Source: Gloeobacter morelensis MG652769
GTDB lineage: Bacteria; Cyanobacteriota; Cyanobacteriia; Gloeobacterales; Gloeobacteraceae
Assembly: GCF_021018745.1 (NCBI RefSeq)
Contig: NZ_CP063845.1
Coordinates: 2,480,001-2,544,000 of the forward strand
Direction of reading: 5' to 3'
Length of the DNA: 64,000 nt
In this document: one piece after another, positions 9,239 through 49,541 of the stretch
How the letters are laid out: each line of letters opens with the position of its first letter
How positions within the stretch are numbered: the first letter of the stretch is position 1
Notes under the pieces: generated by a model
What the model was told of the DNA's origin: nothing
The model's database searches: none
What the model saw: the letters and a program-made list of their open reading frames with translations, nothing else
Translations under genes and position numbers: made by a program

Positions 9239-10033
9239 ATGCAAAAATTTGCCCGTATCCAAATCCTCGGTCTCGTGTTTGCCGCAGGTCTGCTGCTGGC
9301 CGCCGCCGCCGCCGCCCAGCAGGCGCCCAAGCCTTTGCAAACCTACGTCAACGACCTGCTCGCCTTTATCAAGAGCGTGCAGGATTCGACCTACGAAACG
9401 ATTAGCGCCAGCTACCAGGAGCAGATGGAAGCCCTCTACGGCGAGCTGGAAGATCTCGATTTCGACGATTTTCTCGGGGAACTTGGTCTACCGGATACCT
9501 TCGCCCTTGGACTCAGCCTCAACGAGGACGACAACGGCGACCCGTTCAACCTCGGTCCTTTTGCCCCCCGGGCGCTGATGCGCAATCTGGTGACCCGCGA
9601 GAGCAACCGCGCCCTGGCGCGCGCCACCCAGACCGACCGGCTCTCCGCCGAAAGCCAGACGCGCATCCAGAAGAACAACGACCAGTTTCATACCAAGCTC
9701 AAAGATTCCGCCAACCGCGCCGTCACCTACGCGAGCACCGCCGAGGCCGCCCCCTCCACCCAGGACGCCCTCAAGCAGATGAACCAGCAGATGGCCCTGG
9801 TCAATACGTCGATCGTCTCGACCTCGCTCGAATCGCTCAAACTCCAGACCGATTTCGTGGGCGGCCTGGGCAACCTCCAGATGCTCGTCTCCGATGTCGG
9901 CGAAGCCTTCGACGAACAGGTGCGCGACCGCTACCACCAGCGCTCGCAGCAGGCCCTCGCCACCGCCGCCGCCGCCTTTGCCGCCGGCGAAACCTTCGCC
10001 TGGAAAACTTCGACCGCCGAGGCGCCCCGGTGA
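9239..10033 (+). CDS. exported T4SS accessory protein (VirB5/TrbJ-like)
   Basis: A 264-residue protein with a signal peptide (residues 1-27: MQKFARIQILGLVFAAGLLL, then an Ala-rich stretch and AAAQQA) and a mostly helical, Gln/Ser/Ala-rich body (residues 120-230), as in VirB5/TrbJ proteins. It overlaps the following multi-pass membrane gene by 4 bases (GTGA). A second protein of similar character is encoded at 41424 in the main T4SS operon. I chose the ATG at 9239 because it gives a clean signal peptide; the longer form at 9152 does not. T4SS assignment comes from context plus general features, not from a diagnostic motif. Confidence 0.55.
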   Translation: MQKFARIQILGLVFAAGLLLAAAAAAQQAPKPLQTYVNDLLAFIKSVQDSTYETISASYQEQMEALYGELEDLDFDDFLGELGLPDTFALGLSLNEDDNGDPFNLGPFAPRALMRNLVTRESNRALARATQTDRLSAESQTRIQKNNDQFHTKLKDSANRAVTYASTAEAAPSTQDALKQMNQQMALVNTSIVSTSLESLKLQTDFVGGLGNLQMLVSDVGEAFDEQVRDRYHQRSQQALATAAAAFAAGETFAWKTSTAEAPR

Positions 10034-11133
10034 GCTTACTTTTCGCCTGGACCACCCCGGATAGCGCCGCGGAAGGGCTCGCGCAGTTCGCCCAACAGGC
10101 GGCCTCCCAGAATCGCTTGTACTGGGACGGCCTGTGGCAGAGCCTGTTTAGCAGCGGCCTGTGGCGGGGTCTGGAGGCGGCGGCCGGGGTGGTGGCGGGG
10201 CTGGCGCTGCTGGTGTGGGGGGCATTTTTCTTGCGCGGCCTCATCGAAGAGGATTCCACCCCCGCCCTGTCGGAACTCCTCTGGCCCTTGCTGGTGATCT
10301 TTGGGCTGGTACACACCGGCAGCGGCACCAGCAACCTGGCAGGTTGGATCAACTCCGCCCGCACCGTGCCTTACACTCTGGTGGACATCGTCTCCAACTA
10401 CAGCGGCCGGGAGCTGACCACGCTGTCCACCGCCACCGGACCGCTCGATCTGCACGACACCATTTTGCTGGCCGAGTACCGGGTGGGCATGGAGCAACTG
10501 GTGCGCAATCTCTACAACCAGTGCGCCACGCTGCCGGTGGGCCAGTTCAAACCTTGTCTGGCGGAGCGCCGCGGCGATGTGCGGGCCGTCCTCGCGGTGG
10601 TGCGCTCGCGGGTGACTACCAGCGAAGCGTTCGAGAGCGCCGCGCAAGAAATCGACCAGGTCTTCAGCGGTACTATCGATCCCTACACCGCCGTGAGCGC
10701 CACGCGCGCCCTGTTTGCCCGCGACGCCACCGTCGACGGGTGGATGGTCATGCTCCTCTCGTGGCAAAAAAACACCGTGCCGACTTTGGAGTATGCGCTG
10801 ATGGTCTCGGCCACCCTCGCACCGCTGTGCCTCGCCGCCAGCCTATTGCCCGTGGGCAACCGGTCCATCCTCGGTTGGGCGGCGGGCTTCGCCGGCATCT
10901 GCACCGCCTACTTCAGCTACTACATCCTGCTGGGGCTGGGTGCCCATAACTATGTCTTCAATCTCGGTTTTGGCCTCGACGGCACCGCCTTCTTGATGAA
11001 GACCTGCCTGGTGGATCCGCTCATCGCCCTGGTGCTCGGCATCGGCAGCACCCGCAGCCTGTTGTGGGGAGGTGGATACCTGCTGACATCGCCCCACGGC
11101 TATGGCTTCGGGCTTTTGCGCCGCGGGAGCTAA
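10030..11133 (+). CDS. multi-pass membrane protein, VirB6/TrbL-like
   Basis: A 367-residue inner-membrane protein. Predicted membrane segments are about residues 47-70, 83-98, 255-277, 280-302 and 328-348, with a soluble loop at ~105-250. The size and topology fit the VirB6/TrbL channel family. Its GTG is coupled to the upstream exported coiled-coil gene, and an intrinsic terminator lies about 200 bases downstream, so these two genes are a transcription unit. VirB6-like proteins form part of the inner-membrane pore. No sequence signature is decisive; other polytopic families remain possible. Confidence 0.5.
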   Translation: MSLLFAWTTPDSAAEGLAQFAQQAASQNRLYWDGLWQSLFSSGLWRGLEAAAGVVAGLALLVWGAFFLRGLIEEDSTPALSELLWPLLVIFGLVHTGSGTSNLAGWINSARTVPYTLVDIVSNYSGRELTTLSTATGPLDLHDTILLAEYRVGMEQLVRNLYNQCATLPVGQFKPCLAERRGDVRAVLAVVRSRVTTSEAFESAAQEIDQVFSGTIDPYTAVSATRALFARDATVDGWMVMLLSWQKNTVPTLEYALMVSATLAPLCLAASLLPVGNRSILGWAAGFAGICTAYFSYYILLGLGAHNYVFNLGFGLDGTAFLMKTCLVDPLIALVLGIGSTRSLLWGGGYLLTSPHGYGFGLLRRGS

Positions 11134-14643: not shown

Positions 14644-14919
14644 TTAACCGGCATCCTGCCGCACTTGATGGCCATCGTCACCCACGCACTCACCCCGCGC
14701 CAGAAGGGCCCCGGCAGGCTGGGCGTCGGCCATCGCCATCGCCAGCACCTGGTCGATGCGTCGCAATTCGGGCCTGTAGGCGACCAGGTTGCGCAGACAG
14801 CGCTCATCGAGGCGCGCGGCCACCGCTGGCCAGCGGTCTAGCACGCGGCCGAGCGACGGAAGGCAAGGGCCGGAGCAAAGCGCAGGGCGAAGCGTACCCT
14901 TGCCTGTAGGAGTGGCCAT
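14644..14919 (-). CDS. possible small hypothetical protein
   Basis: A 91-residue frame with codon use like its neighbours (strong GC at third positions) and a plausible helical segment (WPAVAARLDERCLRNLVAYR, then RRIDQVLAMAMADAQ). It lies 18 bases upstream of the next gene of the nrdR operon. No family recognised. The first 25 residues look less protein-like, so the true start may be further in. Confidence 0.42.
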   Translation of the reverse strand: MATPTGKGTLRPALCSGPCLPSLGRVLDRWPAVAARLDERCLRNLVAYRPELRRIDQVLAMAMADAQPAGALLARGECVGDDGHQVRQDAG

Positions 14920-15112: not shown

Positions 15113-15340
15113 TCCCCTCTTACTCCTACGCCCTCAAGCGCCTCGCAACGCTACTGCGGCTGCAGACATCGTTCGATTTCGCCCCATCTTCGGGGCAGCT
15201 ACTGGAGCAAGGCCATCCGCTCTCGACGATCTGCCGAAGATGGCACAATGTTAAGATTCCGCAATACTTAAGCTGTGATTTTTGTGATCGTCTCTGGGGA
15301 GGCAGGGTGCAAAAGCGGTAAGTTGAATCGCCTTTTTGAA

Positions 15341-15778
15341 ATGAACCGACCGCCCAAGCGCAAAGGATTGGCGATGGCCCCGCAGCCCGTTGTACCCGAA
15401 GCGAACCCATTCAAGCGCCCCCCTCGCATCCCCAAGCGCCTCACCGGCGAAGCGCGCTGCAAACGGCCGGCCCAGCAGTTGCGCAGCCATGTCATCTCAA
15501 TTCGGCTCAACGAGGCGGACTATCAAAAAGTCAAACAGCTCACCCGCCAGGAGCACGCCTCGATTAGCGCCTACTGTCGGGAGATGGCCCTGCGCAAAAA
15601 AATCAAAGAAATCCCGACAGACCTGCACCGTGAGCGCTGGATGCAGCTGGGCCTCTTGGGGGCACAACTATTGGATCTCAAAGAAAGTGCCCCCGACAAC
15701 CTCGAAAATCTGGTCGAACGGACAGTCACGGAGATCAAGGCGCTGCGCGCGGCTCTGTTTGGCATGCCGCCCGGATGA
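15341..15778 (+). CDS. mobC: MobC-like relaxosome accessory protein
   Basis: A 145-residue basic protein. The centre (SHVISIRLNEADYQKVKQLT, then ISAYCREMAL) is the ribbon-helix-helix-like MobC signature of plasmid mobilisation accessory proteins, and the tail is a helical segment (NLENLVERTVTEIKALRAAL). MobC-type proteins bind the transfer origin and help the relaxase open the DNA. The start at 15341 follows a frame change in composition; a longer version from 15275 seems unlikely. It overlaps the relaxase gene by 4 bases (ATGA). Confidence 0.75.
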   Translation: MNRPPKRKGLAMAPQPVVPEANPFKRPPRIPKRLTGEARCKRPAQQLRSHVISIRLNEADYQKVKQLTRQEHASISAYCREMALRKKIKEIPTDLHRERWMQLGLLGAQLLDLKESAPDNLENLVERTVTEIKALRAALFGMPPG

Positions 15779-16242
15779 TCGGCAATGTCACCACCGGCAA
15801 AAATTTTGGGGGGCTGATCGGCTATTTACTCAAAAAAGGGCACCAGTGCTCGATCCTGGGCGGCAACGTGCTGGGGCGAACCCCCAAAGAGATCCGCCAG
15901 GAATTCGAGCAGTGCAACCGCCTGGCACGCCACATCGGCAAACCCTGCATGCACGTGAGCTTGAGCGCCCGTCCCGGCGAGCGCATCGACCGGCAGCAAT
16001 GGCTGGCGATGGGCCGAGACTATCTAAGGCTGATGAGCATAGACCCGGATAAGCATCTTTATCTCATCGTGGAGCACCGGGATCGACCCCACCCGCACGT
16101 TCACCTGATAATCAGCCGGATTAGTACTGACGGCTCGGTCTACCACAACCACTGGGACGCCTACAAAACCAAGGCCGCCGCCGCCATTTTGACCGAAAAG
16201 TACGGACTGTGGCCAGTTCCCGACGGCCGCAGCGGGACCTAG
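15775..16242 (+). CDS. relaxase/mobilisation nuclease domain protein, short
   Basis: A 155-residue relaxase catalytic domain. Residues 5-25 (VTTGKNFGGLIGYLLKKG) include the candidate nucleophilic tyrosine, and residues ~100-116 (EHRDRPHPHVHLIISRI) hold the three-histidine metal site. Relaxases nick the transfer origin and stay bound to the 5-prime end. Family members usually have another 100-400 residues; here a stop follows the catalytic domain, so it is either minimal or truncated. It is translationally coupled to mobC. No coupling protein (VirD4) is visible in the window. Confidence 0.78.
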   Translation: MIGNVTTGKNFGGLIGYLLKKGHQCSILGGNVLGRTPKEIRQEFEQCNRLARHIGKPCMHVSLSARPGERIDRQQWLAMGRDYLRLMSIDPDKHLYLIVEHRDRPHPHVHLIISRISTDGSVYHNHWDAYKTKAAAAILTEKYGLWPVPDGRSGT

Positions 16243-22509: not shown

Positions 22510-23418
22510 TTAAAGATACGCCTTGAAGATCCGGCTGGCTAAAATATCTGCTGCCTCAATCGTCATCAAATCCACCACCGCCAGCGGCTCCCCCATCCTG
22601 GCAAATAGACGGTTCGCCTGGCGTTTACGAAATTCGTCGATGGCATTTCGGATGCTGCGGGCATTGGCAAAGTACGTCAGCCGCGTGCACCGCTCGATAT
22701 ACCGTCTGAAGGCTTCTTCGGCTGCGGCACCAAGGCGGTACTGCTGGCGGGCGAGCATCAGAGCACCGATCGCAAACAACTCCTCATCGGTGTAATCCGG
22801 AAAAGCGACATGATTATCAATTCGGGAAGCAAGCCCCGGGTTGGCATCAAAAAACCGCGCCATCCGGTCTTTATAGCCCGCGACGATGACCACAAATTCG
22901 CCGCGGCGATTTTCCATCGCCTGCAGAAGCGTCTCGATCACCTCGCTGGTCTGATCGCGCTCACCGGCAGCCTGGTGTAGATAGTACGCTTCATCGATAA
23001 ACAGCACCCCACCCACCGCCTTATCGATCACCTGACCGGTGCGTCCACCAGTCAGGTCGGTGCGGCTAGCGGCGATCATATGGCCCTTTTGAATGTACCC
23101 AAGGCGATGCAAAATACTGGCCATGCGCAGAGCAACCGTCGTCTTGCCGGTGCCGGGCTTGCCGGTAAAGGACATGTGCAGGCCGGGAGCTTCAGAGGTC
23201 ATACCCAGTTTGCGGCGGGTGCGATCGATGAGCAAAAAGGCGGCGATTTCGCGAATGGCGGTTTTTACTGGCTGCATGCCGACGAGATCCCGCTCCAGTT
23301 CATCCAGGATGGCCTGGACCGCCGATCGGGCATACTCAGCCTGCAGATCCACCGCTTCGCCCGCCCCAGCAACCGCTGCGACCGAGGATGAACAGCCCGC
23401 AAATAATTCGGTTCGCAT
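22510..23418 (-). CDS. cbbX: CbbX-like AAA+ ATPase with shortened pore loop
   Basis: A 302-residue AAA+ protein close to CbbX, the activase of red-type Rubisco. Walker A is GKPGTGKT (86-93), Walker [13 protein letters not shown] (136-147), and the arginine-finger region is [20 protein letters not shown]. Between DLTG (121-124) and AVGG (134) about eight residues are missing relative to the usual VGQYIGHTAPK region, so the aromatic pore-loop tyrosine is absent. Cyanobacteria mostly use form IB Rubisco, and no Rubisco gene is near. The ATG at 23418 was preferred over a TTG at 23463. Confidence 0.82.
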
Positions 23419-23481
23419 AGATAAATAGATGCTCAAACGATCGGTTCTAACTCTAAGGGGCAAAATTCAAGGCCAACTCGT

Positions 23482-25340: not shown

Positions 25341-26138
25341 TCAGTCCCGAGTGGAGACTTTGCCCTGAGGACCGATCCACACGAGTGTCTCGACGGCGGG
25401 CGGCCAGGGAAAAGGGCCGGCCCAGTAGGTGCAGCCGGGTCCGCAGGGAGTGCGCACGTACAGCTCGAAGTACCCCTTGCCCTCTACTTCGTCCACGCGC
25501 GTGTGCTTGATTTTTTGTTTGCCGTTGCAGACGACCGACTGCCCGACTTTGAAGCGCTGGGCCGCAGGCAGCGAAAACTCCGTAAAGCCGTTGAAATCGA
25601 AATTGACGTGATCGACCAGTTGGCCCAAAAAACAGCTGCTCAGCCCGAGGCTTTCCACCGTGTTGAGCCCGAGGCCAGGAATGTCGGCCAGCGGTATATC
25701 GGTGATGTCGGGAATCTTTTCTAGGGCCAGTGAGCCCAGACCGGCAAGCGAACCGATGGGACTATCCAGAAACCCGGCAGGCAAATAGCCCTGCGCTACA
25801 GCCTGGGACAGGGTGAGATTCCGGCAGGCGGCCGCCACCGGGCAGCTCGACTTGAGCGAGGGCACATCTTTGAGCAGCACCTTTGAAAGCCCCGGAAAAT
25901 CGCGCACACTCACCCCGCCCGCCCCGGCAATCTGCCCTAACTGCAACTTCTCAGAGCCGGGCAGGTACTGCAGCGACAGGGTCTGCAGCGCCTCGGGCAC
26001 ATCCTCTAAAAGCACCTTGCCCGGATCGACCGCCGGCGGTCCTGCCGCCCGCACCGCCAGCGAAGCGGCTCCCCAGGCCGCAACCGCCAGCGCCGCCGCC
26101 CACATCGGCAGCTTGCGGGCCATTCTCGGTATGTTCAT
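25341..26138 (-). CDS. secreted protein with degenerate leucine/proline repeats
   Basis: A 265-residue exported protein. A signal peptide (RKLPMWAAALAVAAWGAASL) is followed by repeated short units ending in IPGL or VPSL (FPGLSKVLLKDVPSLKSSCP; PLADIPGLGLNTVESLG), then a cysteine-bearing beta-rich domain (VVCNGKQKIKHTRV; TPCGPGCTYWAGPFPWPP). The family is unknown to me. Its signal peptide puts it in the periplasm or outside. It could serve the T4SS nearby, but only loose context supports that. Confidence 0.62.
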   Translation of the reverse strand: MNIPRMARKLPMWAAALAVAAWGAASLAVRAAGPPAVDPGKVLLEDVPEALQTLSLQYLPGSEKLQLGQIAGAGGVSVRDFPGLSKVLLKDVPSLKSSCPVAAACRNLTLSQAVAQGYLPAGFLDSPIGSLAGLGSLALEKIPDITDIPLADIPGLGLNTVESLGLSSCFLGQLVDHVNFDFNGFTEFSLPAAQRFKVGQSVVCNGKQKIKHTRVDEVEGKGYFELYVRTPCGPGCTYWAGPFPWPPAVETLVWIGPQGKVSTRD

Positions 26139-33229: not shown

Positions 33230-33895
33230 TCAAGCTTCCGGGTCGATGCCGAGGGAACGTAGCTGTGCAGCCAGACGTTCCGCCCGCTGCTCCGCTTCCT
33301 GCGTCCGCTCTTCAGGGGTCGGATAGCGACACCCCGACTCGTCGTACCAGTACAGCCACTCGCGTTCGATACCCTGATCGACACCCCGCTCCGCCCCGAT
33401 CGCCAGACCCACCTCCGGCAACCAGACCGGATTTCCCTCCAGACGCACGTACTCCCCGCCTTCCAGCCGATATACCTCGAAGCTCTCCTTCACCTGTCGC
33501 AGCGCGTTGTAGATCACGTAGTAGCGCACCCCCAACTCGGCATAATCGAGCTTTTTCTGCCGATACTCGCTGCGCCGGGTGCGCGAGACGACTTCCAGGG
33601 TCAGCACCGGCACCACTTTTTCTTCCCACAGCACGTAGCTGCGCCGCAGATTCTCGTCTTTGACCCGCGGCACGCCGAGGGCGAGAAACCCGTCCGGCAC
33701 CACCGGAGTATCGTCCGGATCGAAGTAGATGCCCATGTCGGTACCCCAGAACCAGTCCCGGCGCTCCGCCCAAATCGAGGCGAGCAGACGTTTGAGCAAA
33801 CCGGGAATCAGGTCCTGCAGTTCGTTGTCCACGGGGGTGTCGTCGGAGTCCGGCAACTCGTCGGCGGTGGGAAGCCGGGTGTGCGGGTCGAACAT
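33230..33895 (-). CDS. Uma2 family (DUF820) protein, tandem copy 1
   Basis: A 221-residue Uma2 protein with the active-site pattern DPDDTPVVPDGFLALGVP, PVLTLEVVSRTRRSEYRQKK and YAELGVRYYVIYN (D...E.V..K layout of PD-(D/E)XK-like enzymes). It is nearly identical to the protein encoded at 34530 apart from residues 4 and 66 and the C-terminal ~25 residues. The upstream flank GTGCACCCTGAACGCGCC is also shared, so the duplication covers more than the gene. Function in cells unknown. Confidence 0.85.
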   Translation of the reverse strand: MFDPHTRLPTADELPDSDDTPVDNELQDLIPGLLKRLLASIWAERRDWFWGTDMGIYFDPDDTPVVPDGFLALGVPRVKDENLRRSYVLWEEKVVPVLTLEVVSRTRRSEYRQKKLDYAELGVRYYVIYNALRQVKESFEVYRLEGGEYVRLEGNPVWLPEVGLAIGAERGVDQGIEREWLYWYDESGCRYPTPEERTQEAEQRAERLAAQLRSLGIDPEA

Positions 33896-34529: not shown

Positions 34530-35216
34530 TCAAGCGTCCGGGTCGATGCCGAGGGCGCGCAGGCGTGCGGCCAGCCGCTCCGCCCGCTCCCGCTCAAGCT
34601 CGGCACTGCGCAGGGCGGCCTCCACCCGCTCTTCAGGGGTCGGATAGCGACACCCCGACTCGTCGTACCAGTACAGCCACTCGCGTTCGATACCCTGATC
34701 GACACCCCGCTCCGCCCCGATCGCCAGACCCACCTCCGGCAACCAGACCGGATTTCCCTCCAGACGCACGTACTCCCCGCCTTCCAGCCGATATACCTCG
34801 AAGCTCTCCTTCACCTGTCGCAGCGCGTTGTAGATCACGTAGTAGCGCACCCCCAACTCGGCATAATCGAGCTTTTTCTGCCGATACTCGCTGCGCCGGG
34901 TGCGCGAGACGACTTCCAGGGTCAGCACCGGCACCACTTTTTCTTCCCACAGCACGTAGCTGCGCCGCAGATTCTCGTCTTTGACCCGCGGCACACCGAG
35001 GGCGAGAAACCCGTCCGGCACCATCGGAGTATCGTCCGGATCGAAGTAGATGCCCATGTCGGTACCCCAGAACCAGTCCCGGCGCTCAGCCCAAATCGAG
35101 GCGAGCAGACGTTTGAGCAAACCGGGAATCAGGTCCTGCAGTTCGTTGTCCACGGGGGTGTCGTCGGAGTCCGGCAACTCGTCGGCGGTGGGAAGCCGGG
35201 TGTGCGAGTCGAACAT
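34530..35216 (-). CDS. Uma2 family (DUF820) protein, tandem copy 2
   Basis: A 228-residue Uma2 protein, almost the same as the one at 33230: changes are P4S, V66M and a seven-residue longer, charged C-terminus (EAALRSAELERERAERLAAR). DNA identity is close to complete over roughly 630 bases and extends upstream of the start codon. The copies are direct repeats separated by the broken pentapeptide gene. Same predicted PD-(D/E)XK-like fold; biological role unknown. Confidence 0.85.
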   Translation of the reverse strand: MFDSHTRLPTADELPDSDDTPVDNELQDLIPGLLKRLLASIWAERRDWFWGTDMGIYFDPDDTPMVPDGFLALGVPRVKDENLRRSYVLWEEKVVPVLTLEVVSRTRRSEYRQKKLDYAELGVRYYVIYNALRQVKESFEVYRLEGGEYVRLEGNPVWLPEVGLAIGAERGVDQGIEREWLYWYDESGCRYPTPEERVEAALRSAELERERAERLAARLRALGIDPDA

Positions 35217-37858: not shown

Positions 37859-38233
37859 ATGTCTGCTATTGCTATCTTCAACCGTTTGAACCTGCCGGTA
37901 ATTTACAGCACTTTGAAAAAGTTCTCCCCCGCTTACGCCACAGCCGCCCTCAGCGTGATGCTTTTGTCCAATCCGGCCGCAGCCCAGCTTTCCAACCAGA
38001 TCCAGGGGGAGCTGAACAACCGTCTGCCCAACGCCGCCCTCGGTTATGCCACCTCGATGAACACCCTGGTGCAGTTTTTGCTGTGGGTGCTGGCGGTGGT
38101 GCTGGTGGCACTGTGCGGCTTCGGTGTGGTCGAAGGGATCAACGGCCGCGGCTGGAATAAAGCGTTCGCTTCGGTGGTCGGCTCGGTATCGATTGCCATC
38201 CTGGTCGCCGTCGTGCTGGAGGCCACGAAATAG
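37859..38233 (+). CDS. VirB2/TrbC-like pilin subunit
   Basis: A 124-residue protein with a long signal-type N-terminus (residues 1-42, ending NPAAAQ) and two later hydrophobic segments (LVQFLLWVLAVVLVALCGFG and VVGSVSIAILVAVVLEA) separated by a short basic loop (EGINGRGWNKA). That is the VirB2/TrbC pilin layout. It is first in a five-gene operon with VirB3-, VirB4-, VirB5- and VirB6-like genes. Pilins form the extracellular fibre or channel lining. A GAGGAA site precedes the ATG. Family call rests on topology and order. Confidence 0.72.
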   Translation: MSAIAIFNRLNLPVIYSTLKKFSPAYATAALSVMLLSNPAAAQLSNQIQGELNNRLPNAALGYATSMNTLVQFLLWVLAVVLVALCGFGVVEGINGRGWNKAFASVVGSVSIAILVAVVLEATK

Positions 38234-38235
38234 CG

Positions 38236-38595
38236 ATGAGCTCCTCCCTGCCGACGGTCAAATTCGAGGCGTTCTGGGACGAGCAGGCGACGCTCACGAC
38301 GGGTTTCGGCAACATCTCGCTCAAGCTTGAGACCATCGCCGGTCTGGTGGTCTCGGTGGGCCTGGGGTATCTGGTCTGGAACATCGTGCGCTTTCCGGTC
38401 TATCTGCCGATGGTCCGCTTCGACTTCGGGGTGATCGGACCGCTCGTCTGCTCGCTGCCTTTTTTCTTGAGCTACAGGCTCGCCACCCTCCAGCGCTCCT
38501 TCTTTGAGATCTGCGAGGACCTCCTCGGCGTGCTGGTGCTGCCGCGCGTCGTCCCGGAGCCGGACGCCGAACTTGTTCCCCTGGTCATCGATTAG
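38236..38595 (+). CDS. VirB3-like membrane protein
   Basis: A 119-residue protein with two hydrophobic segments (GLVVSVGLGYLVWNIVRFPV and FGVIGPLVCSLPFFLSY). The gene lies 2 bases after the pilin gene and 95 bases before the VirB4 gene, exactly where VirB3/TrbD/TraL sits. VirB3 is a small inner-membrane protein that works with VirB4. No strong sequence signature, so the assignment is positional. Confidence 0.62.
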   Translation: MSSSLPTVKFEAFWDEQATLTTGFGNISLKLETIAGLVVSVGLGYLVWNIVRFPVYLPMVRFDFGVIGPLVCSLPFFLSYRLATLQRSFFEICEDLLGVLVLPRVVPEPDAELVPLVID

Positions 38596-38689
38596 CCCGC
38601 CGCCAATCGATCCTCTGCCCAGGTCGTAACCGTTCAGGCCGCGCTGTGCGCCGGTCGGCGGGGACGACCCTCTTCTATAGGAGAAAACG

Positions 38690-41431
38690 ATGGGTCTTGT
38701 CTCCAAAAAGTCCTATCAGAATTCGGATCTGTGGGACATCCACGCGCTGCCGTCCGGGGCAGGAGCGTATATCCTCAGCAACAACGGCAGGCCGCTCTAT
38801 CAGGTGGGCTTTGAGTTGTCGGGGGTGCGCCTCAGCCAGTCGGACGCCGAACTGGACGGCATCTACCAGAAACTGGTCGCCTTGATCAACGCCCTGCCCC
38901 CCGGCACGCGCGTGCGGGTCATCCATCAAATAGACGCCAACCTCAAAGAAACCCTCGATCAGTTCGAGGGCGAACTCGCCCGCGCCGCCCTGCCCGACCA
39001 CGCCCGCTACTTTATCGGCCAGAACAAACTGCACGTCGAAACGCTCCTCGCGCGCGGGCGGGTAATCCGCCGGCGGCTGGTGGTGCTCTTTACGTTCGAT
39101 CCCAACGGCCTGGTCAACGCCCGGCAAAATTTTGTCCAGAAGCTCGCCCTGGTGGGGGTGGACTGGTTTTACACCGCCCTTGGGGGGGCCTCCCGCTTCG
39201 ATCAGATGACCCGCGAGGTCTTCGAGCAATCGATGCGCGAACTGGACGAATTTCGCGATCTGTGCTTACGGCTTTTGCGCACCAGCGGCATGGCGGTGCT
39301 TTCGCTGGGGCCGGGCGAACTGTGGAAACTCAGTTTCGAGCGCAACCATCCGCTTACGGCCAAAACCCAGGGGGTGCCGCCCCTGCCGACCGACTGGCGT
39401 GAGGACGAAAGGCTCGCTGCTGAAAAAAAACAACTGCCGCTCTATTCGACCCCACGCGAACTGGTCTACTCGCAGGAGCCCAGCTTTCAGCCGGATCACG
39501 TCTATCTCGACGGCAAGTACGCCGGTGTGGTCACCCTGCGCAGCAAACCCAAACAGGGCACCTTCCCGGTCTTGATGGGGCAGCTGTTGCAGTTTTCTTT
39601 CGATTACGAGGTGGTGGTCGATCTGGTGGTGGCCGAACCCAACCAGGCGCGCGGCCGCCTTGCGCTGCTTGAGAACACGATCGTCGCCAACATCAACACC
39701 GCCAAGACCGTAGCCGACGTCAACCAGCAAGAAAAACTCGAAGAAATCCGCGACGCCAAAATCCGCCTCACCCGCAACCGCGAAAAAATCGTCACCCTGG
39801 GCATGGCGGTTATCCCCAAGGCCGACTCGACCAAACAACTGGACGAGTACTGTCATCTGATCGAAAACGTATTCACCAACATGAGCGAAGCGGTGGGTCT
39901 GCGCGAGCGCAACCTCGCCTGGCAGGTCTGGTGCCAGAGCGCCCCCGATTCGGCCAACCCGATGGCCCGACGGCGCACCCACTCCAGTTCGCGCGCGGCA
40001 GTGCTCATGCCCCTCAATGCCCCCAAAAAGGGCGACCGCAAGCCGCTACTCACCTTTTTGACCCCTTCGGGGGATCTCTACAAGTTCAATCCCTTCGACG
40101 GCAGCAATCCCAACTTCAACATGGGCATCTTCGCCCAGTCGGGCCACGGCAAGAGCGTCATGGTCTTCATGTTGCTGATTGGCGCTCTGATTGAAGAAGC
40201 GCTCATCACCATTCTGGATGTGGGCGTGGTCGAGGGGGGAGGCACCTACAAACCCCTGTGCGACCTGGTGGGCGGCTCCTACGTGCAGTTCGGTTCAGGC
40301 TCCATCGCCATCAATCCGCTCGAACTGCCGATCGACTTGATTCTCGATGAATTCGACGAGGAAGATTTCGGCGATCCGGCCGATCAGTTTGCCCCGCCCA
40401 CACCGGCGCAAATCTATACGCGGGTGCGCGAATACATCAAAGCGCTACTCTACGTGATGATTACCGGCGCTAAAGACAACGCCCACGAGCAGATCATCAT
40501 CGGCAAGCTCAACCAGGCTCTGGCCGAATTTTACGCAGACCCGGTCATCCGCGATCGCCTTCGGGCCGCCCACAAAGGCGGTATGGGCTCCGCCGCCTGG
40601 CGGCGCTATCCGACGCTGTCCGACTTTATTGAATTTATCCCTTACCGGGGCGCAGACGACGAGGTGGCCGAACTGATGAGCCTGGTGCTGCGGGGAACGT
40701 ACTGTTCGGGTCTTGAAGGGGCTATCTTCAATCGCCCCAGCAACATCGATCAAAGTGCTCCCATGCTGGTATTCGACCTTAAAGACGTGCCCCAGTCGAT
40801 GTTCGAAGCGGTGGTGGTGGCTACCAACGGTGCGGCGGTGCGCCGCTCCTACCGGCGCGACGGCAAGCTCAAGTTCGTCGTGGCCGACGAGGCCGGGGTG
40901 CTCCTCAAGCGGCGCGTTGTGGCCAGTCTGATTGCTGAGCTGTTTGCCACCGGCCGCAAATCGGGCATCTCGACCGCCTTTGTCGCCCAGGACTACGCCC
41001 AGGCGATGCGCTCAGAAGCCTGGTCGGATCTCAAGGCGAATATGAACAACGTCTTTTTTGGGGCCTGCTATCCCCAGACCCTCGAAACGGTCGGACAGCA
41101 AATGCAGATGCCCCGCGAGATCGTCCAGGAACTGGCCGGTCCCGCCTTCAAGCGCAACCGCCTCGAAGGCTACTCGCCCTGGCTGCACGTCAAAGGCGGC
41201 AACGAGTACGAGGTGGTCCACTGCGTGCCGCCCATCAGTCTGCTGTGGCTTGCAGCGAACGACCCGCGCGAAACCGCGATCAAAAAGCAGTACCTGCAGG
41301 CGGTGCGCGACCCGTACACCGCCCTCAAGCTGCTTTCTGCCGACTATCCGCAACTGGCGGAAGGCGGCAAGCAAAACACCTATTTGGACCAGTTCATCCG
41401 GAAATATCAGGAGGCTATTGCCCATGCCTAG
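38690..41431 (+). CDS. virB4: VirB4/TraC-family T4SS ATPase
   Basis: A 913-residue conjugation ATPase. The N-terminal ~420 residues are a TraC/VirB4 domain; Walker A is SGHGKS (484-489), Walker B KFVVADEAG (728-736), followed by VAQDYAQAM typical of TraC-like proteins. VirB4 energises pilus assembly and substrate transfer at the inner membrane. The ATG at 38690 has a good AGGAGA site. The gene overlaps the next by 8 bases. This is the strongest evidence for a T4SS in the window. Confidence 0.9.
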   Translation: MGLVSKKSYQNSDLWDIHALPSGAGAYILSNNGRPLYQVGFELSGVRLSQSDAELDGIYQKLVALINALPPGTRVRVIHQIDANLKETLDQFEGELARAALPDHARYFIGQNKLHVETLLARGRVIRRRLVVLFTFDPNGLVNARQNFVQKLALVGVDWFYTALGGASRFDQMTREVFEQSMRELDEFRDLCLRLLRTSGMAVLSLGPGELWKLSFERNHPLTAKTQGVPPLPTDWREDERLAAEKKQLPLYSTPRELVYSQEPSFQPDHVYLDGKYAGVVTLRSKPKQGTFPVLMGQLLQFSFDYEVVVDLVVAEPNQARGRLALLENTIVANINTAKTVADVNQQEKLEEIRDAKIRLTRNREKIVTLGMAVIPKADSTKQLDEYCHLIENVFTNMSEAVGLRERNLAWQVWCQSAPDSANPMARRRTHSSSRAAVLMPLNAPKKGDRKPLLTFLTPSGDLYKFNPFDGSNPNFNMGIFAQSGHGKSVMVFMLLIGALIEEALITILDVGVVEGGGTYKPLCDLVGGSYVQFGSGSIAINPLELPIDLILDEFDEEDFGDPADQFAPPTPAQIYTRVREYIKALLYVMITGAKDNAHEQIIIGKLNQALAEFYADPVIRDRLRAAHKGGMGSAAWRRYPTLSDFIEFIPYRGADDEVAELMSLVLRGTYCSGLEGAIFNRPSNIDQSAPMLVFDLKDVPQSMFEAVVVATNGAAVRRSYRRDGKLKFVVADEAGVLLKRRVVASLIAELFATGRKSGISTAFVAQDYAQAMRSEAWSDLKANMNNVFFGACYPQTLETVGQQMQMPREIVQELAGPAFKRNRLEGYSPWLHVKGGNEYEVVHCVPPISLLWLAANDPRETAIKKQYLQAVRDPYTALKLLSADYPQLAEGGKQNTYLDQFIRKYQEAIAHA

Positions 41432-42440
41432 TTTTTGGAGCGTCCTGCTGGGGGTCGCAAGCCTCGTGCTCGGCGAGAACCTCGATGAAAATCTCCAACA
41501 GGTCAACACTTCGTTCGACCAACTGCTCAACCAGGGCGTATTGAGCCCGTCGCTCACATCAGCCGCCGCCTCGGTCAACGGCAACTTCAATGAATTGTCG
41601 GCGGTATTGGGCATCGAAGACGCCCTGGGTAGTGCGTCGCTCGAAGAACTCAAAAAGCTCAAAGTGATCATCCCCGATTCGGTGCTCACCCAGTTGGAAG
41701 CCGCCGTCGGCAAGCGCTTCGGTCCGCTTGCCTCGGTATCCGATTTTGCGATGCCGATGTCGCGTGCTGCGGCCCGCCGGGTGACCGAATCGATGATGTT
41801 TGCCGAGGTGAGCGACCCGGCCACCGGCGACGTCAATCCGCCCTTTATGTCGGCGAGCGGGTCGGCCAAGCGCGCCGAGGCCATTCAAAATCTCAACAAC
41901 GCCGAAATTCAACTGCAAGATCAGGTGAGCAACTGGCAGCAACCGGCGCTCGGCAATGCCCTGGGCGCCTATACCGCCGGCCGCAGCGCCATCGATCAGA
42001 TGCCCGCGGTCACCGCCGGGGCGATGAGCGCCGTGAGCGCCGCCGCCACCGCCGCCCAGTCGCTGCCTTCGACCCAACTGGTGCTCAAAGAAATTGCCAA
42101 AGAACTGGAGGCGATGGGTCAGTTGCACTCGGACATTGCCAATCAGCAGGCCGCCTCCACCAGCCAGGAATTGCAGGCGCGCTGGGAAGCTACCGACGCC
42201 GAGCGCACCGCCGCCAACGTCAATATGTTCAACGCCCGCCTGCTGACCGAACTGTTGAAGCGCCAGGCGAGCGCCCTGGAGTTTCAGGGCCAGTCGATCA
42301 TGGCCCTCAATCAGATCGGCGCCATCGGCGATGAGTATCTACAAAAAGCGGCTTACGAAAAAACGACCTCGATGGAAGGCGCGCTCGATGTCGCCGGGTT
42401 GGTGCGCACTTCGGCCAAAAACCCCGCCTTCGGCAGCTAG
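41424..42440 (+). CDS. helical T4SS protein, VirB5/TrbJ-like
   Basis: A 338-residue protein. The N-terminal 18 residues are a weak signal peptide (PSFWSVLLGVASLVLG), and the body is helical and rich in Ala, Gln and Ser (NLNNAEIQLQDQVSNWQQPA; RLLTELLKRQASALEFQGQS). It overlaps the VirB4 gene and precedes a VirB6-like gene, which is the VirB5/TrbJ position. I start at the ATG at 41424 because upstream codons in the same frame lie inside virB4. It resembles the exported protein at 9239 in composition and layout. Confidence 0.62.
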   Translation: MPSFWSVLLGVASLVLGENLDENLQQVNTSFDQLLNQGVLSPSLTSAAASVNGNFNELSAVLGIEDALGSASLEELKKLKVIIPDSVLTQLEAAVGKRFGPLASVSDFAMPMSRAAARRVTESMMFAEVSDPATGDVNPPFMSASGSAKRAEAIQNLNNAEIQLQDQVSNWQQPALGNALGAYTAGRSAIDQMPAVTAGAMSAVSAAATAAQSLPSTQLVLKEIAKELEAMGQLHSDIANQQAASTSQELQARWEATDAERTAANVNMFNARLLTELLKRQASALEFQGQSIMALNQIGAIGDEYLQKAAYEKTTSMEGALDVAGLVRTSAKNPAFGS

Positions 42441-42449
42441 GAGATCGCC

Positions 42450-44726
42450 ATGTACCACCTGATTGGCGCCGCCCCGACGGGGCCTGCATCGCTGAGCGTC
42501 ACCTCCGGCGCCATCAAGGCGATCCAGGACGCGCTGCTGACGATGACCACGCTTTTTGAGGCGGGGTTGCTGCCGACAGTCCGTTCGATCGGCCTCGGTT
42601 TTGCGATCATCATGTTGCTCATTTACCTGGTCAAAACCTTCTGGAGCTACAGCACCGGCGAATCGAACAGCCTGCCGATGCCCATCGGCACGGCGGTCTT
42701 TCGCTTTGCCCTGGTGCTGGTGCTGCTTACCGGCGGGGCGACCGCCAGCCAGGTGGGTCTACCCAAAGGCGACGGCACCGGCGGCTCCATCCCCAGCCTC
42801 GCCCCCGGTGAGGTCGCCCCCGGGGACAATTACACCGCCATCGCCTGGGGCATCTCCGCCTTTGGGCAAGGAGCTTTGGCGGCGGCAGAAAACGGAGCGC
42901 TCAAAGCCCTCAACGACGCGCGCCAGAACTGGAAAGTCGCCGTCCAAAAACCCGATCCGACCGTAGGCGGCGTACCGCAGACCGAAACGGAGACCAGCGG
43001 TAACCGGGGCGGTTCGACGGTGGACAGCACCGAACAGGCCGGAGCGGCCACCGTCGATACCTCCAAAGACGTCTCCAGCCAGACCCCCACCCAGCAGCCG
43101 GGCAACAACAACCCGATCGCCGGCGCGAAAGAATTTGCCAAACAGATCCTCTCCGGCTGGTCCACGACTTTAGCCGGGGCGGTGATCGACCTGCTGCAGA
43201 TGCTGCTTGGTCCGATCGTCTTCATGTTCATGATGATTCATCATCTGATTTTGCTGGTGCTCTGGGTGCTCGGGCCGCTGACGGTCGGTCTGATGATGTA
43301 CGACACCCGATACTTCAAAAGCTGGATCGAGCAGTACGTCCAGGTCAGCCTCTGGCCGCTCATCACCGAACTGATGATCGGCATGGTGGCCTTCATGCGC
43401 GAAGGAATCAACATCGACAGCGCCAACCCGGCCGGCCCCTGGATCTCGGTGGCCTTCACCCTCGCCATCATGATTGGCCTGTTGTGGGTACCGAAGATGG
43501 CCCAGTTCTCCGAAGGACTGGCTGCCAGTGCCGGCGGAGCCCTGATGGGTGCGGCGGTGGGCACAGCGGCGGCGGCGACCGGCGCCGGGGTGGCAATGGC
43601 GGGTGCTGCCGCCGGTTTTGCCGGCAGCGCCGCCCTGAGCGCCGGGGTAAACGCCGCCACCGGCAAAAGTTTCGCCTTCGGCTCCGGAGGGCGCTTCATG
43701 CAGCGGATGGCCGACGGCAAATTCACCCAGGACCGCGCCGCTTCCTACAGCGCAGGCATGCAATCTGAGTACGCCAAAGATCCTTCCGGCAAAGTTGGCC
43801 AGGATTATGCTTCGGCCAGACAGAGCGGCTTTAACGGCAGCGTCGATGAATGGATCGGCAAGCAGGCCCAGCAGCAGGCCACCCAGGAGCTGCGGCAGCG
43901 GCAACTCGAGCGCTCCAGCAGCACCGGTCTTGGGGCCGTACCCGGCCGGGTGGGGGCGGCGGCGGCCGCAGTAGCTCAAAGCCCGCTCGGCAAAGGGATC
44001 TCCGCCGCGGCGGGCTATGCGGCCGAAGGTGCGAAGGAAGTAGGCGGAGTAATCGCCTCAACGCCGGTGGGCAAAGCCGTCGCTGCCGCCCCGGCCCGGG
44101 CCTCGGAGGCGGCCCGGGCGGTGGCTGAAAGTCCGGCAGGCAAAGCTGCAGGCAAAGCTGCACAAAATGTGGCGGCTGTTCCGGGCAAGGTGAGAGAGGC
44201 AGCAGGGGAAGTGGGCAGTGTGATCGCTTCCACTCCTGTGGGCCAGGTGATTGCTTCTGCCGCCGGCAAAGTGGTCGAAGCGGCCCAGAAGATCCGCGGG
44301 GGCGGTGACGACGACGACAAAACCCCCCCTCCCTCCGGCGGCGAGAGCTCCGGCTCCCCTACGACCGGCCGCCCAGAAGGCGGCGAGCCCGGCACTTCCC
44401 CAGCCGGCGAATCCCCCCCGACCCAGCAGCTCAATATCCCTATCCCTTCCAGCCCCCAACCGGCTGGGGAGAACAGCAACAGCGCTTCCACTTCGACCCC
44501 GACCAGCCCCTCCCCAGAAACCAGTACCCAGAACCCCTCCAGCAACCAGGAAAACCCCACCTCCCCGCCGAGCATCCTCCAGACCCCCCCCCTCAGCGTG
44601 GGCCCATCCCCCGAGCAACCGCCCCCTGCGCCTCCTGCCGCCGAGAACAACGCCCAGAGCGGCGAAGAACCCCAGCGGACCCGACGCGATCCGAGGCGCA
44701 ACTGGAAAAAAGGCAAGAGCGAATAG
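42450..44726 (+). CDS. VirB6/TrbL-like channel protein with long disordered tail
   Basis: A 758-residue protein. Residues 1-360 form about six membrane segments (for instance LGFAIIMLLIYLVKTFW, VIDLLQMLLGPIVFMFMMIH and PWISVAFTLAIMIGLLW) as in VirB6/TrbL/TraG-N proteins. Residues 370-590 are Ala-rich with imperfect repeats (GVIASTPVGKAVAAAPARAS; SVIASTPVGQVIASAAGKVV). The final ~140 residues are Pro/Ser-rich and end in a basic tail (RTRRDPRRNWKKGKSE). It is last in the operon, followed by a terminator. Confidence 0.72.
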   Translation: MYHLIGAAPTGPASLSVTSGAIKAIQDALLTMTTLFEAGLLPTVRSIGLGFAIIMLLIYLVKTFWSYSTGESNSLPMPIGTAVFRFALVLVLLTGGATASQVGLPKGDGTGGSIPSLAPGEVAPGDNYTAIAWGISAFGQGALAAAENGALKALNDARQNWKVAVQKPDPTVGGVPQTETETSGNRGGSTVDSTEQAGAATVDTSKDVSSQTPTQQPGNNNPIAGAKEFAKQILSGWSTTLAGAVIDLLQMLLGPIVFMFMMIHHLILLVLWVLGPLTVGLMMYDTRYFKSWIEQYVQVSLWPLITELMIGMVAFMREGINIDSANPAGPWISVAFTLAIMIGLLWVPKMAQFSEGLAASAGGALMGAAVGTAAAATGAGVAMAGAAAGFAGSAALSAGVNAATGKSFAFGSGGRFMQRMADGKFTQDRAASYSAGMQSEYAKDPSGKVGQDYASARQSGFNGSVDEWIGKQAQQQATQELRQRQLERSSSTGLGAVPGRVGAAAAAVAQSPLGKGISAAAGYAAEGAKEVGGVIASTPVGKAVAAAPARASEAARAVAESPAGKAAGKAAQNVAAVPGKVREAAGEVGSVIASTPVGQVIASAAGKVVEAAQKIRGGGDDDDKTPPPSGGESSGSPTTGRPEGGEPGTSPAGESPPTQQLNIPIPSSPQPAGENSNSASTSTPTSPSPETSTQNPSSNQENPTSPPSILQTPPLSVGPSPEQPPPAPPAAENNAQSGEEPQRTRRDPRRNWKKGKSE

Positions 44727-44740
44727 CATACCCCACAGAC

Positions 44741-44766
44741 TCCCGGCCCCCGCCGGGATTTTTTTG
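44741..44766 (+). terminator. intrinsic terminator of the main T4SS operon
   Basis: TCCCGGC, a four-base C loop and GCCGGGA are followed by seven T residues. It lies 15 bases after the VirB6-like gene, so it closes the five-gene operon. Confidence 0.85.
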
Positions 44767-47066: not shown

Positions 47067-47507
47067 ATGAGCCGCCTGGGTCTGGACCTTAAAGCTCTTA
47101 AAGATATGCCGGGGGCCGCCGAGCGCGCCCGCAACCTTTCTGGTGAGCGGCTGACGATTGTGGCGCTGAGTGTCGCCCTCGGGACTATGACGCTGCTGTG
47201 GCAGAGCGAAAGACTCAAACCAGCCCCCAGCTTCGTTGTCACCCAGGAAGGTTCGATTGCGGCCGCCAGGCCCACCGATCCGAATCTGCGCACTCCCGAA
47301 GAAATCAAGGTGTTTGCCGAGCGCACCTGGCGCGGTCTGTACGGCTGGAACTACGATCTATCACCTAGTCTTTGCGAATGCAAGAAAATGTATTGGCAGC
47401 GCTTCAAACCATCTGCCCGAAAGCGCACTTCAAAGGAGCGAACACTACTGCGAGCAACCCCCGAAGCCGCTCGCTCCACCAAGGGCGGCAATAAAAAATG
47501 CAAATAA
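47067..47507 (+). pseudogene. VirB8/TraE-like gene, truncated
   Basis: Residues 1-95 give a one-helix membrane protein (LTIVALSVALGTMTLLWQSE) followed by RTPEEIKVFAERTWRGLYGW, a pattern of VirB8/TraE-like T4SS proteins (membrane anchor, then the start of the periplasmic domain). After LYGWNYDLSP the sequence turns into a basic, cysteine-bearing tail (CKKMYWQRFKPSARKRTSKE) unlike the family, so the periplasmic domain is lost. The 47-52 kb region is full of IS elements. The VirB8 link is inference and moderate at best. Confidence 0.42.
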
Positions 47508-47941: not shown

Positions 47942-48325
47942 TTACTCTCGATCGCGGCGATAGTTAAGGTAAAAACTCTCTACGATCTGCGCCAGCTCAT
48001 CTACTCCTTCTTCAAGAATCCTGAATACTGGTAACTGAGTTCTTTCAATGAGATTGCCCTTGTGTTCGAGCAATTGAGCTGTGGTACAGTTTTGATTGTT
48101 TAGAGTGATTGCCAAAGGGTCGGCACCAAACAATCGCAACATTGCAAGCTCATCTTCAATCGGTCTAATCTGATACTGAATATCTTCTAGACCATCATAG
48201 AAGAGCCTGCCAGGGGCATGCTGGATGATCGCTGCTTTTGCATTGCACGAGATAATAATCTCTGAGCCAAAAGGTGCCGGCGGATAGAAATGCGCTCCCT
48301 GACCTTCTTCAAGGGGTGACAGACA
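47942..48325 (-). pseudogene. DUF1611-like protein, C-terminal fragment
   Basis: An open frame of about 128 codons with no start, cut at its N-terminal end where the IS4 transposase gene begins. It reads EEGQGAHFYPPAPFGSEIII, AAIIQHAPGRLFYDGLED and LRLFGADPLAITLNNQNCTT, then TQLPVFRILEEGVDELAQIV, resembling the DUF1611 C-terminal domain (HxxGR motif followed by a TGLPxxDP-like part). The family link is inference. The missing first half is not elsewhere in the window. Confidence 0.55.
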
Positions 48326-48328
48326 AGG

Positions 48329-49480
48329 CTACGTGACGCTCAGCATCAACCTTGCAGCCCGCAACCCGCGTCGATAGTCCCGGGCTTTGTTCCTACAGGT
48401 GTCTATCAAATTGTCGAGCCAGTCACCCAAACCCAGCACCGCCTGTGCCCAGTGCCAAGCGTACTGGCCAACCCGAAAAGGGCTGTGACGCCGCAAGCGT
48501 CGCTGCTTTTCTTGAACCCTGCCGGTGTACTTGTCCACCCCTATTCGCTCCAGTTGCAGACCGTTGAGCATCGCTGCACTCCAGGCAATCGATGCTAACA
48601 ACAGTACCCGCATCATCCGTTCCTGACTGACGCGTACTTCTTCAAGATGGTAGCCACAGGATTTGACGTCTTTGTGCCAAACTTCGATTCCCCAACGGTC
48701 AGCATACAGCTCAAGTGCTTCGTGTAACTTTGGCCGGTCTGTCAAAATATACCAGCCTTCACCCGGTTGCATATTCCGGATTTTTCGTTTCCAGATACAA
48801 GCAATATTGAACGGCTCGAATCCCTTGTTTTTACGATTTTTGGTGACGCGCACTCCGCCAAGAAACATCGACATTCCAGGTTGTAGTTCCAAAGACTTTA
48901 GCGAGCGAAAGTCTGCACCTTGTTGTCGAATATATTCACTGATTTTTAATCTCAAGCAAAAGCCGGCCTTTCGACTGCGCAACCAATTGGCCAGCTTGAC
49001 ACTGCAAAACTCTCTGTCCCCCAACACCACGACGCGATAGGCAGAAAGTAGAGACAGAACCGGTGAGAGTAACAGTTGTTGGTCTTCGAGGTTACTGTTG
49101 CCAGGATGGTCGAGCAAGGTCCAATTGAGTGGCAAGGCATGTCTATGCCACACCAGGGCCACTGTCAGCACGTTGTAGTGCCACCAGTCGGTGCGGTCGA
49201 TCGCCAGTTTGAGTGTGGTTGTCTTGGAAAAGTGGGTCAGTACCAGGTACAAAACCAATGGGAACCAAGCCTCGAAAATATTGAGTTTGTCGAGGGTGAG
49301 AAAGCGTTGGAGAGCGCGCTTGCGACTGTCGGCAGTGATCGGCAGCGGCAGTGCCTGGGAGAGTTTGCCCAAGGCGAGCTGTTTGTGGGTTTGCAAAGTG
49401 GCGACAAGCAAATGCAAAAACAGAGACTGTCGCGCAGTGAGCAGGTGTGCGAAGAAGGTCTGGTAGAATGCAGGCATCAT
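48329..49480 (-). mobile_element. IS4-family transposase
   Basis: A 383-residue DDE transposase. Motifs are LKLAIDRTDWWHYN (first D), VVVLGDREFCSVKLANWLRS (second D) and LYADRWGIEVWHKDVKSCGY (Y-(2)-R-(3)-E-(6)-K-like signature of IS4). The frame is intact. It is next to the truncated DUF1611 fragment, showing where it inserted. Terminal inverted repeats could not be fixed with confidence. The start at 49480 is the first of two adjacent ATGs. Confidence 0.85.
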
Positions 49481-49541
49481 TGTTTTTTTGGATGGACTTG
49501 GGCGACATCCCAAGTCCATTTTCCTATGTAGGCTTACTGGA

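Follow-up and report, generated by a model that had tools for sequence, protein, structure and literature searches.

We examined a 64,000-nucleotide stretch of the genome of Gloeobacter morelensis MG652769 (hereafter the window, C1:2480001-2544000). This genome, G000, consists of contigs C1 (4,921,229 bp), C2 (172,328 bp) and C3 (8,839 bp). The window carries parts of two different type IV secretion systems (T4SSs). System A, at 15-48 kb, is broken and plasmid-like; a gene pair at 9.2-11.1 kb represents one third of a complete, conserved chromosomal system, system B (Table 1). The two are of different families and have been differently inherited. System B was compared in the five Gloeobacteraceae genomes that carry it, G000 and its relatives G001-G004.

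Table 1. T4SS genes and associated features of the window; C2 coordinates refer to the plasmid contig of the same genome.
Feature	Position	Strand	Evidence
System B VirB5-position protein: helical, 264 aa, with a signal peptide or an N-terminal transmembrane segment; locus II	9239..10033	+	profile E=8.6e-18, top match in window; hydropathy
System B polytopic membrane protein of 367 aa in the VirB6 position	10030..11133	+	profile E=3.1e-34
MobC/NikA-like relaxosome protein, system A region	15275..15778	+	PF21983 E=6e-10
MOBP relaxase of 155 aa, limited to the nuclease domain, system A region	15775..16242	+	complete PF03432 domain, E=4e-29; relaxase of C2 has 718 aa
Three system A accessory genes, inverted relative to plasmid C2	16281..18305	-	42-47 % to C2:111187-113109
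IPGL-repeat exported protein X, short form, system A	25341..26138	-	42 % to C2:105169-106629; X profile E=2.6e-7
System A VirB2-like pilin	37859..38233	+	TrbC/VirB2 PF04956 E=0.004; 62 % to C2:113238-113633
System A VirB3-like	38236..38595	+	56 % to C2:113646-113999; position
System A VirB4 ATPase	38690..41431	+	TraG P-loop PF19044 E=3e-9, TraC_F_IV E=3e-5; 73 % to C2:114079-116820
System A VirB5/TrbJ-like	41424..42440	+	34 % to C2:116810-117943; position
System A VirB6/TrbL-like	42450..44726	+	TrbL_4 E=0.002; 41 % to C2:117944-120646
System A VirB8-like, truncated, 146 aa vs 238	47067..47507	+	49 % to C2:121594-122310, residues 21-113 only; VirB8 profile E=1e-4
Insertion sequence (DDE transposase) adjoining truncated VirB8	48307..49531		100 % over 1225 bp to C2:83937-85161; PF01609

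An initial annotation had proposed that the 9.2-11.1 kb pair belongs to a T4SS, and profiles made from non-Gloeobacter T4SS operons only, the source of the system B E-values in Table 1, bear this out. The VirB5-position protein is 98-99 % identical in G001 and G002 and 44 % in G004; the corresponding values for the VirB6-position protein are 97-99 % in G001 and G002, 72 % in G003 and 51 % in G004. Each of these four genomes lacks system A and has one VirB4, of another family than that of system A. It is VirB4 proteins of this second family that VirB6-position homologues adjoin in genomes G007, G010, G014 and G020 and on plasmid C2 (at 20.8 kb), and an independent plasmid search found such a homologue beside VirB4 in a Calothrix plasmid. 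Because structure models were of low confidence, placement of the pair was decided by sequence profiles and gene order, which make it the unit occupying the VirB5 and VirB6 positions of a T4SS.

The remaining genes of system B lie elsewhere on C1. One block, VirB8-VirB10-VirB9-X-VirD4, is found at C1:3207049-3212400 (3.21 Mb) and as a single block in each of G001-G004; its VirD4 (C1:3207049-3208665) is a coupling protein of TrwB/TraG type (TrwB_AAD_bind E=7e-28). Another, at C1:3418168-3423008 (3.42 Mb), comprises a muramidase-like gene with VirB2, VirB3 and VirB4, the last matching a non-Gloeobacter profile at E<1e-284. The loci are thus not contiguous but occupy three places, 0.2-3 Mb apart. 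When profiles from non-Gloeobacter operons only were run against 4660 six-frame open reading frames (ORFs) of the Gloeobacter loci, VirB2, VirB3, VirB4, VirB5, VirB6, VirB8, VirB10, X and VirD4 each gave a single place in every one of G000, G001, G003 and G004, and VirB9 did so in three of these four, with no match in G004. Profiles of the pair's family for VirB8, VirB10, VirB9 and VirD4, run over whole genomes, located these four genes together at C1:3207091-3212340 in G000 and in one block in each of G001-G004, except that VirB9 was not found in G004. The initial annotation had reported VirB9, VirB10, VirB11 and the coupling protein missing and had considered a T4SS devoid of an outer-membrane core. 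VirB9, VirB10 and VirD4 are indeed absent from the window but are present elsewhere in G000: at C1:3.207-3.212 Mb system B has VirB8, VirB9, VirB10 and VirD4, and the C2 relative of system A is complete. A core-less T4SS is accordingly rejected. VirB11 was seen in none of the examined operons of this T4SS family.

In nine annotated cyanobacterial plasmids and at C2:15.9-26.5 kb the same genes form one operon, VirB2-VirB3-VirB4-VirB5-VirB6-VirB8-VirB10-VirB9-X-VirD4 (VirB2 and X escaping detection by profile in a few), and the three Gloeobacter blocks are consecutive segments of this order. Plasmid C2, of 172 kb, itself bears two complete T4SSs of different families, that at C2:15.9-26.5 kb and another at C2:113.2-127.7 kb. 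Trees of VirB4, VirB6, VirB8, VirB10 and VirD4 each recover the Gloeobacter copies as monophyletic with local support of 1.0, while the nearest outside relative varies or stays unresolved between the five.

All three blocks are present in G000-G004. Within the roughly 20-40 kb compared per locus, the T4SS genes are common to the G000/G001 group and to G003/G004 whereas the flanking genes are not. The ORFs are open in all genomes read, and the ratio of non-synonymous to synonymous substitution rates (dN/dS) between G000 and G001, G003 or G004 is 0.00-0.34 where computable, indicating purifying selection. Since the T4SS genes are shared while their flanks differ, and dN/dS is low, the blocks have stayed apart, moved independently and been kept by selection. 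A few genes adjacent to the VirB4 block are also shared (those for the muramidase and for 131-aa and 432-aa proteins) and may belong to it. The 432-aa protein (C1:3423452-3424750), upstream of the VirB2-VirB4 genes, is kept in G000-G004 and matches no Pfam or NCBIfam entry.

System B is thus very probably, judging from these sequence comparisons, a complete, vertically inherited T4SS derived from the cyanobacterial conjugation family, split in three blocks. An ancestral operon in the plasmid order would have been cut at two points to give muramidase with VirB2-VirB3-VirB4, VirB5-VirB6, and VirB8-VirB10-VirB9-X-VirD4, the three having relocated independently round the chromosome since before Gloeobacteraceae diversified. 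The initial annotation was right that T4SS genes are split, but the split is that among the three loci of system B, not one between the pair and the operon at 37.9-44.7 kb.

The products of system B would most likely form an ordinary VirB/VirD4 envelope-spanning machine, with VirB4 and VirD4 providing power, VirB8 with VirB9 and VirB10 the periplasmic and outer parts, VirB5 and VirB6 the stalk, and VirB2 the pilin. In the R388 T4SS, VirB5 and VirB6 reportedly form a stalk. The three blocks match sub-complexes, namely VirB2 pilin and VirB4 base; VirB5-VirB6 stalk; and VirB8 arches, outer core and coupling ATPase, an observation rather than a test. No longer needing to move as one unit, the machine would export substrates chosen by VirD4, likelier proteins than relaxase-bound DNA, and system B is probably a domesticated, protein-exporting T4SS. 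That the products of the three blocks do assemble into one machine, and that it exports proteins, is a view towards which we lean slightly. We give an even chance to the fuller proposition of a Gloeobacteraceae T4SS domesticated for protein export or cell-cell antagonism, with blocks matching sub-complexes and with lineage-wide scattering outside Rickettsiales, in free-living phototrophs near the cyanobacterial base.

A different function would follow if system B were a resident mating machine that still conjugates DNA, moving relaxase-bearing plasmids in trans. A TrwB/TraG-type coupling protein has been retained under selection, MOBP relaxases are encoded on C2, on C3 and elsewhere in G000, and MOBV in G002; the 8.8-kb contig C3, with its MOBP relaxase, could use system B in this way. 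However, G001, G003 and G004 keep the whole of system B and yet yielded neither MOBP (PF03432) nor MOBV (PF01076) relaxases, other families such as MOBF not having been searched, and helping other elements offers a host no obvious reason for retention. We therefore consider this explanation unlikely. The same lack of relaxases of the two families in three genomes could point to a DNA-uptake or pilus/adhesion device, as could the loss of VirD4 from related Nostocales operons, and the ComB uptake system of Helicobacter pylori, without VirD4, provides a parallel. A pure uptake device is nevertheless disfavoured because VirD4, which uptake would not need, has been kept in the Gloeobacter VirB8-VirB10 block under purifying selection, and such a role seems distinctly improbable. 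It is very improbable that system B is the degenerating remnant of an ancient integrated conjugative element: the genes are scattered, VirB9 is short and X is without its peptidase domain, but the ORFs remain open, dN/dS does not exceed 0.34 where computable and the same gene set persists over deep divergence. Chance similarity was also considered and rejected.

Several points weigh against system B as a complete, protein-exporting machine. VirB9 was not found by profile in the G004 block (G004:C129:2692-5148) and elsewhere in Gloeobacter is short, at 155-176 aa (C1:3209793-3210323 in G000). The relaxase search covers two families only, G002 has MOBV matches on a small contig, and the PF01076 search likewise found no relaxase in operon-bearing control genomes. 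Neither protein of the pair has a Pfam or NCBIfam match or anything meaningful in profile searches of the PDB, so that the names VirB5 and VirB6 rest on operon position and topology. AlphaFold2 models of both are of low confidence (predicted local distance difference test score, pLDDT, 58), and Foldseek with the VirB6-position model gave no match at E<0.001, so that structure prediction speaks neither for nor against the assignment. Assembly of the three blocks' products is an inference from sequence. PDB profile searches with VirB8, VirB10, VirB9 and VirB4 alignments yielded nothing useful.

Among known systems, system B most resembles the MPF_C family of pCC7120alpha and of plasmids from Nostoc, Trichormus, Tolypothrix and other cyanobacteria, which has the same VirB4, VirD4, VirB8, VirB10, VirB9, VirB5, VirB6 and X, the same gene order within each block and, again, no VirB11 seen. 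By profile and tree its VirB4 groups with those of named plasmids (pCC7120alpha was not among the compared sequences), and the type-specific genes VirB2, VirB3, VirB5, VirB6, VirB8, VirB9 and VirB10 are all found in Gloeobacter chromosomes, VirB9 not in G004. A coupling protein, as in conjugative systems, is present in VirD4. Unlike MPF_C plasmid systems, system B is chromosomal, vertically inherited and in three blocks rather than one contiguous operon, with no MOBP or MOBV relaxase in three genomes, a short VirB9 and an X without the M23 peptidase domain seen in the G010 protein.

The vir homologue (rvh) T4SS of Rickettsiales is an MPF_T-type system with VirB11 and gene duplications; its hosts are intracellular, whereas Gloeobacter is a free-living phototroph. 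It is a vertically kept T4SS of protein-export type whose genes are spread among several places in the chromosome (PMC3158045, PMC5481527, PMC12102498); system B shares the vertical inheritance and the scattering and, probably, the export of proteins. In G000-G004 the three blocks have differing flanks, and the closest relatives identified were T4SSs of cyanobacterial plasmids, no rvh sequences having been compared. A further likeness is to MOBless T4SSs, in which a chromosomal VirB4 and coupling protein occur without a nearby relaxase (Guglielmini et al. 2011, PMC3158045); these have been noted for cyanobacteria, and protein export has been proposed for them (PMC3158045). System B fits this class because no MOBP or MOBV relaxase is found in G001, G003 and G004, but the definition needs a co-localised cluster and here 0.2-3 Mb separate the coupling protein from VirB4.

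Because a T4SS has to be transferred whole, its genes are expected to lie together, and scattering marks lost mobility and adoption by the host. Scattered T4SSs are known from Rickettsiales and are considered relatively rare among other proteobacteria (PMC3158045), and Rickettsia has likewise been named as the exception (PMC12102498). Literature text searches, which covered few subscription papers, turned up no publication on T4SSs in Gloeobacter. Rickettsiales being the only group for which the literature examined reports scattering as established, Gloeobacter is a separate case: alongside the textbook exception it adds a second, independent one, in thylakoid-less cyanobacteria. Detection based on clusters would miss or misfile system B. 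From a listing that spans 156 sampled cyanobacterial genomes, 62 VirB4 places were taken; 38 of them lie within 25 kb of a VirD4 gene, and Gloeobacteraceae, contig ends and fragments are among the other 24.

Breaks at the same VirB4/VirB5 point are seen elsewhere. The second T4SS of G014 is cut there, its parts (C41:2.4-6.2 kb and 192.7-201.5 kb) lying 190 kb apart, and in a Snowella metagenome-assembled genome VirB2-VirB3-VirB4 on one strand is followed by VirB5-VirB6-VirB8-VirB8-VirB10 inverted. Also widespread, in heterocystous cyanobacteria, is a chromosomal operon VirB2-VirB3-VirB4-VirB5-VirB6-VirB8-VirB8'-VirB10-VirB9 with duplicated VirB8 and without VirD4 (full pattern at 63 of 80 loci; e.g. 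G119:C1:362-372 kb). No VirD4 of its family was found anywhere in G084 or G099. This Nostocales operon may represent a second case of domestication, serving uptake or pili; together with the Gloeobacter case, it suggests repeated cyanobacterial domestication of conjugation machines.

System A is of another kind. The five-gene operon (37859-44726) that the initial annotation recognised is real: besides domain matches, its five genes are matched one by one, and in unchanged order, at C2:113238-120646 (62, 56, 73, 34 and 41 % identity), and the MobC/relaxase operon at 15275-16242 is likewise confirmed. Overlooked at that stage were the truncated VirB8 and a plasmid-like block at 16.3-27.1 kb, whose genes at 16.3-18.3 and 24.7-26.1 kb match C2:103.8-113.1 kb, inverted. 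Downstream of the operon come a pentapeptide-repeat gene, the truncated VirB8, an insertion sequence identical to the C2 copy and a second transposase pair. Overall, the genes of system A match those of C2:103.8-122.3 kb one for one, though with the truncation and the insertion sequence. The plasmid version (C2:103.8-128 kb) is contiguous. Past VirB6 it goes on with genes resembling VirB8, VirB10 and VirB9, followed by a site-2 protease-like gene and, as far as C2:127701, VirD4 (T4SS-DNA_transf E=2e-44); by comparison, that in the window is partly inverted, interrupted and without VirB9, VirB10 and VirD4. G001-G003 lack a close homologue of the system A VirB4, and G001 synteny stops at window position 14845, beside a repeat preceding an apparent transposase gene in G001. 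Because of the inversions in the C2 match, the VirB8 truncation and insertion sequence, and the lack of a G001-G003 VirB4 homologue, system A is a lineage-specific, incomplete plasmid-like element: at 15.3-47.5 kb lies a rearranged, disrupted remnant of a plasmid-type conjugation system with an intact relative on C2. As a stand-alone machine it probably does not work.

That the pair and this operon are one split T4SS without an outer-membrane core is barely credible: both are T4SS genes of one window, with NrdR between them as originally stated, but they are not halves of one machine. VirB5 and VirB6 are present in both units, and their distribution refutes the idea: the pair occurs also in G001-G004, the operon in G000 alone, and in three congeners the pair stands without the operon. 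The pair's family adjoins a different VirB4 family and has its VirB8, VirB9, VirB10 and VirD4 at 3.21 Mb. A complete, contiguous T4SS elsewhere, an outcome set beforehand against a single machine, is found on C2 for system A. With hhalign, VirB6 of system B gave a suggestive but weak 71-column match to that of system A (probability 8 %), and profile comparison of the two VirB5 proteins gave no match.

Two further features of the window may be mentioned. An AAA ATPase (22510-23463) is 94 % identical as protein to that at C2:147526-148434, far closer than other shared genes, which suggests recent exchange between plasmid and chromosome. A 300-bp repeat, 99 % identical between copies, occurs at 33298-33597, in a Uma2-type gene, and at 34619-34918, in an ORF of similar size (34530-35216).

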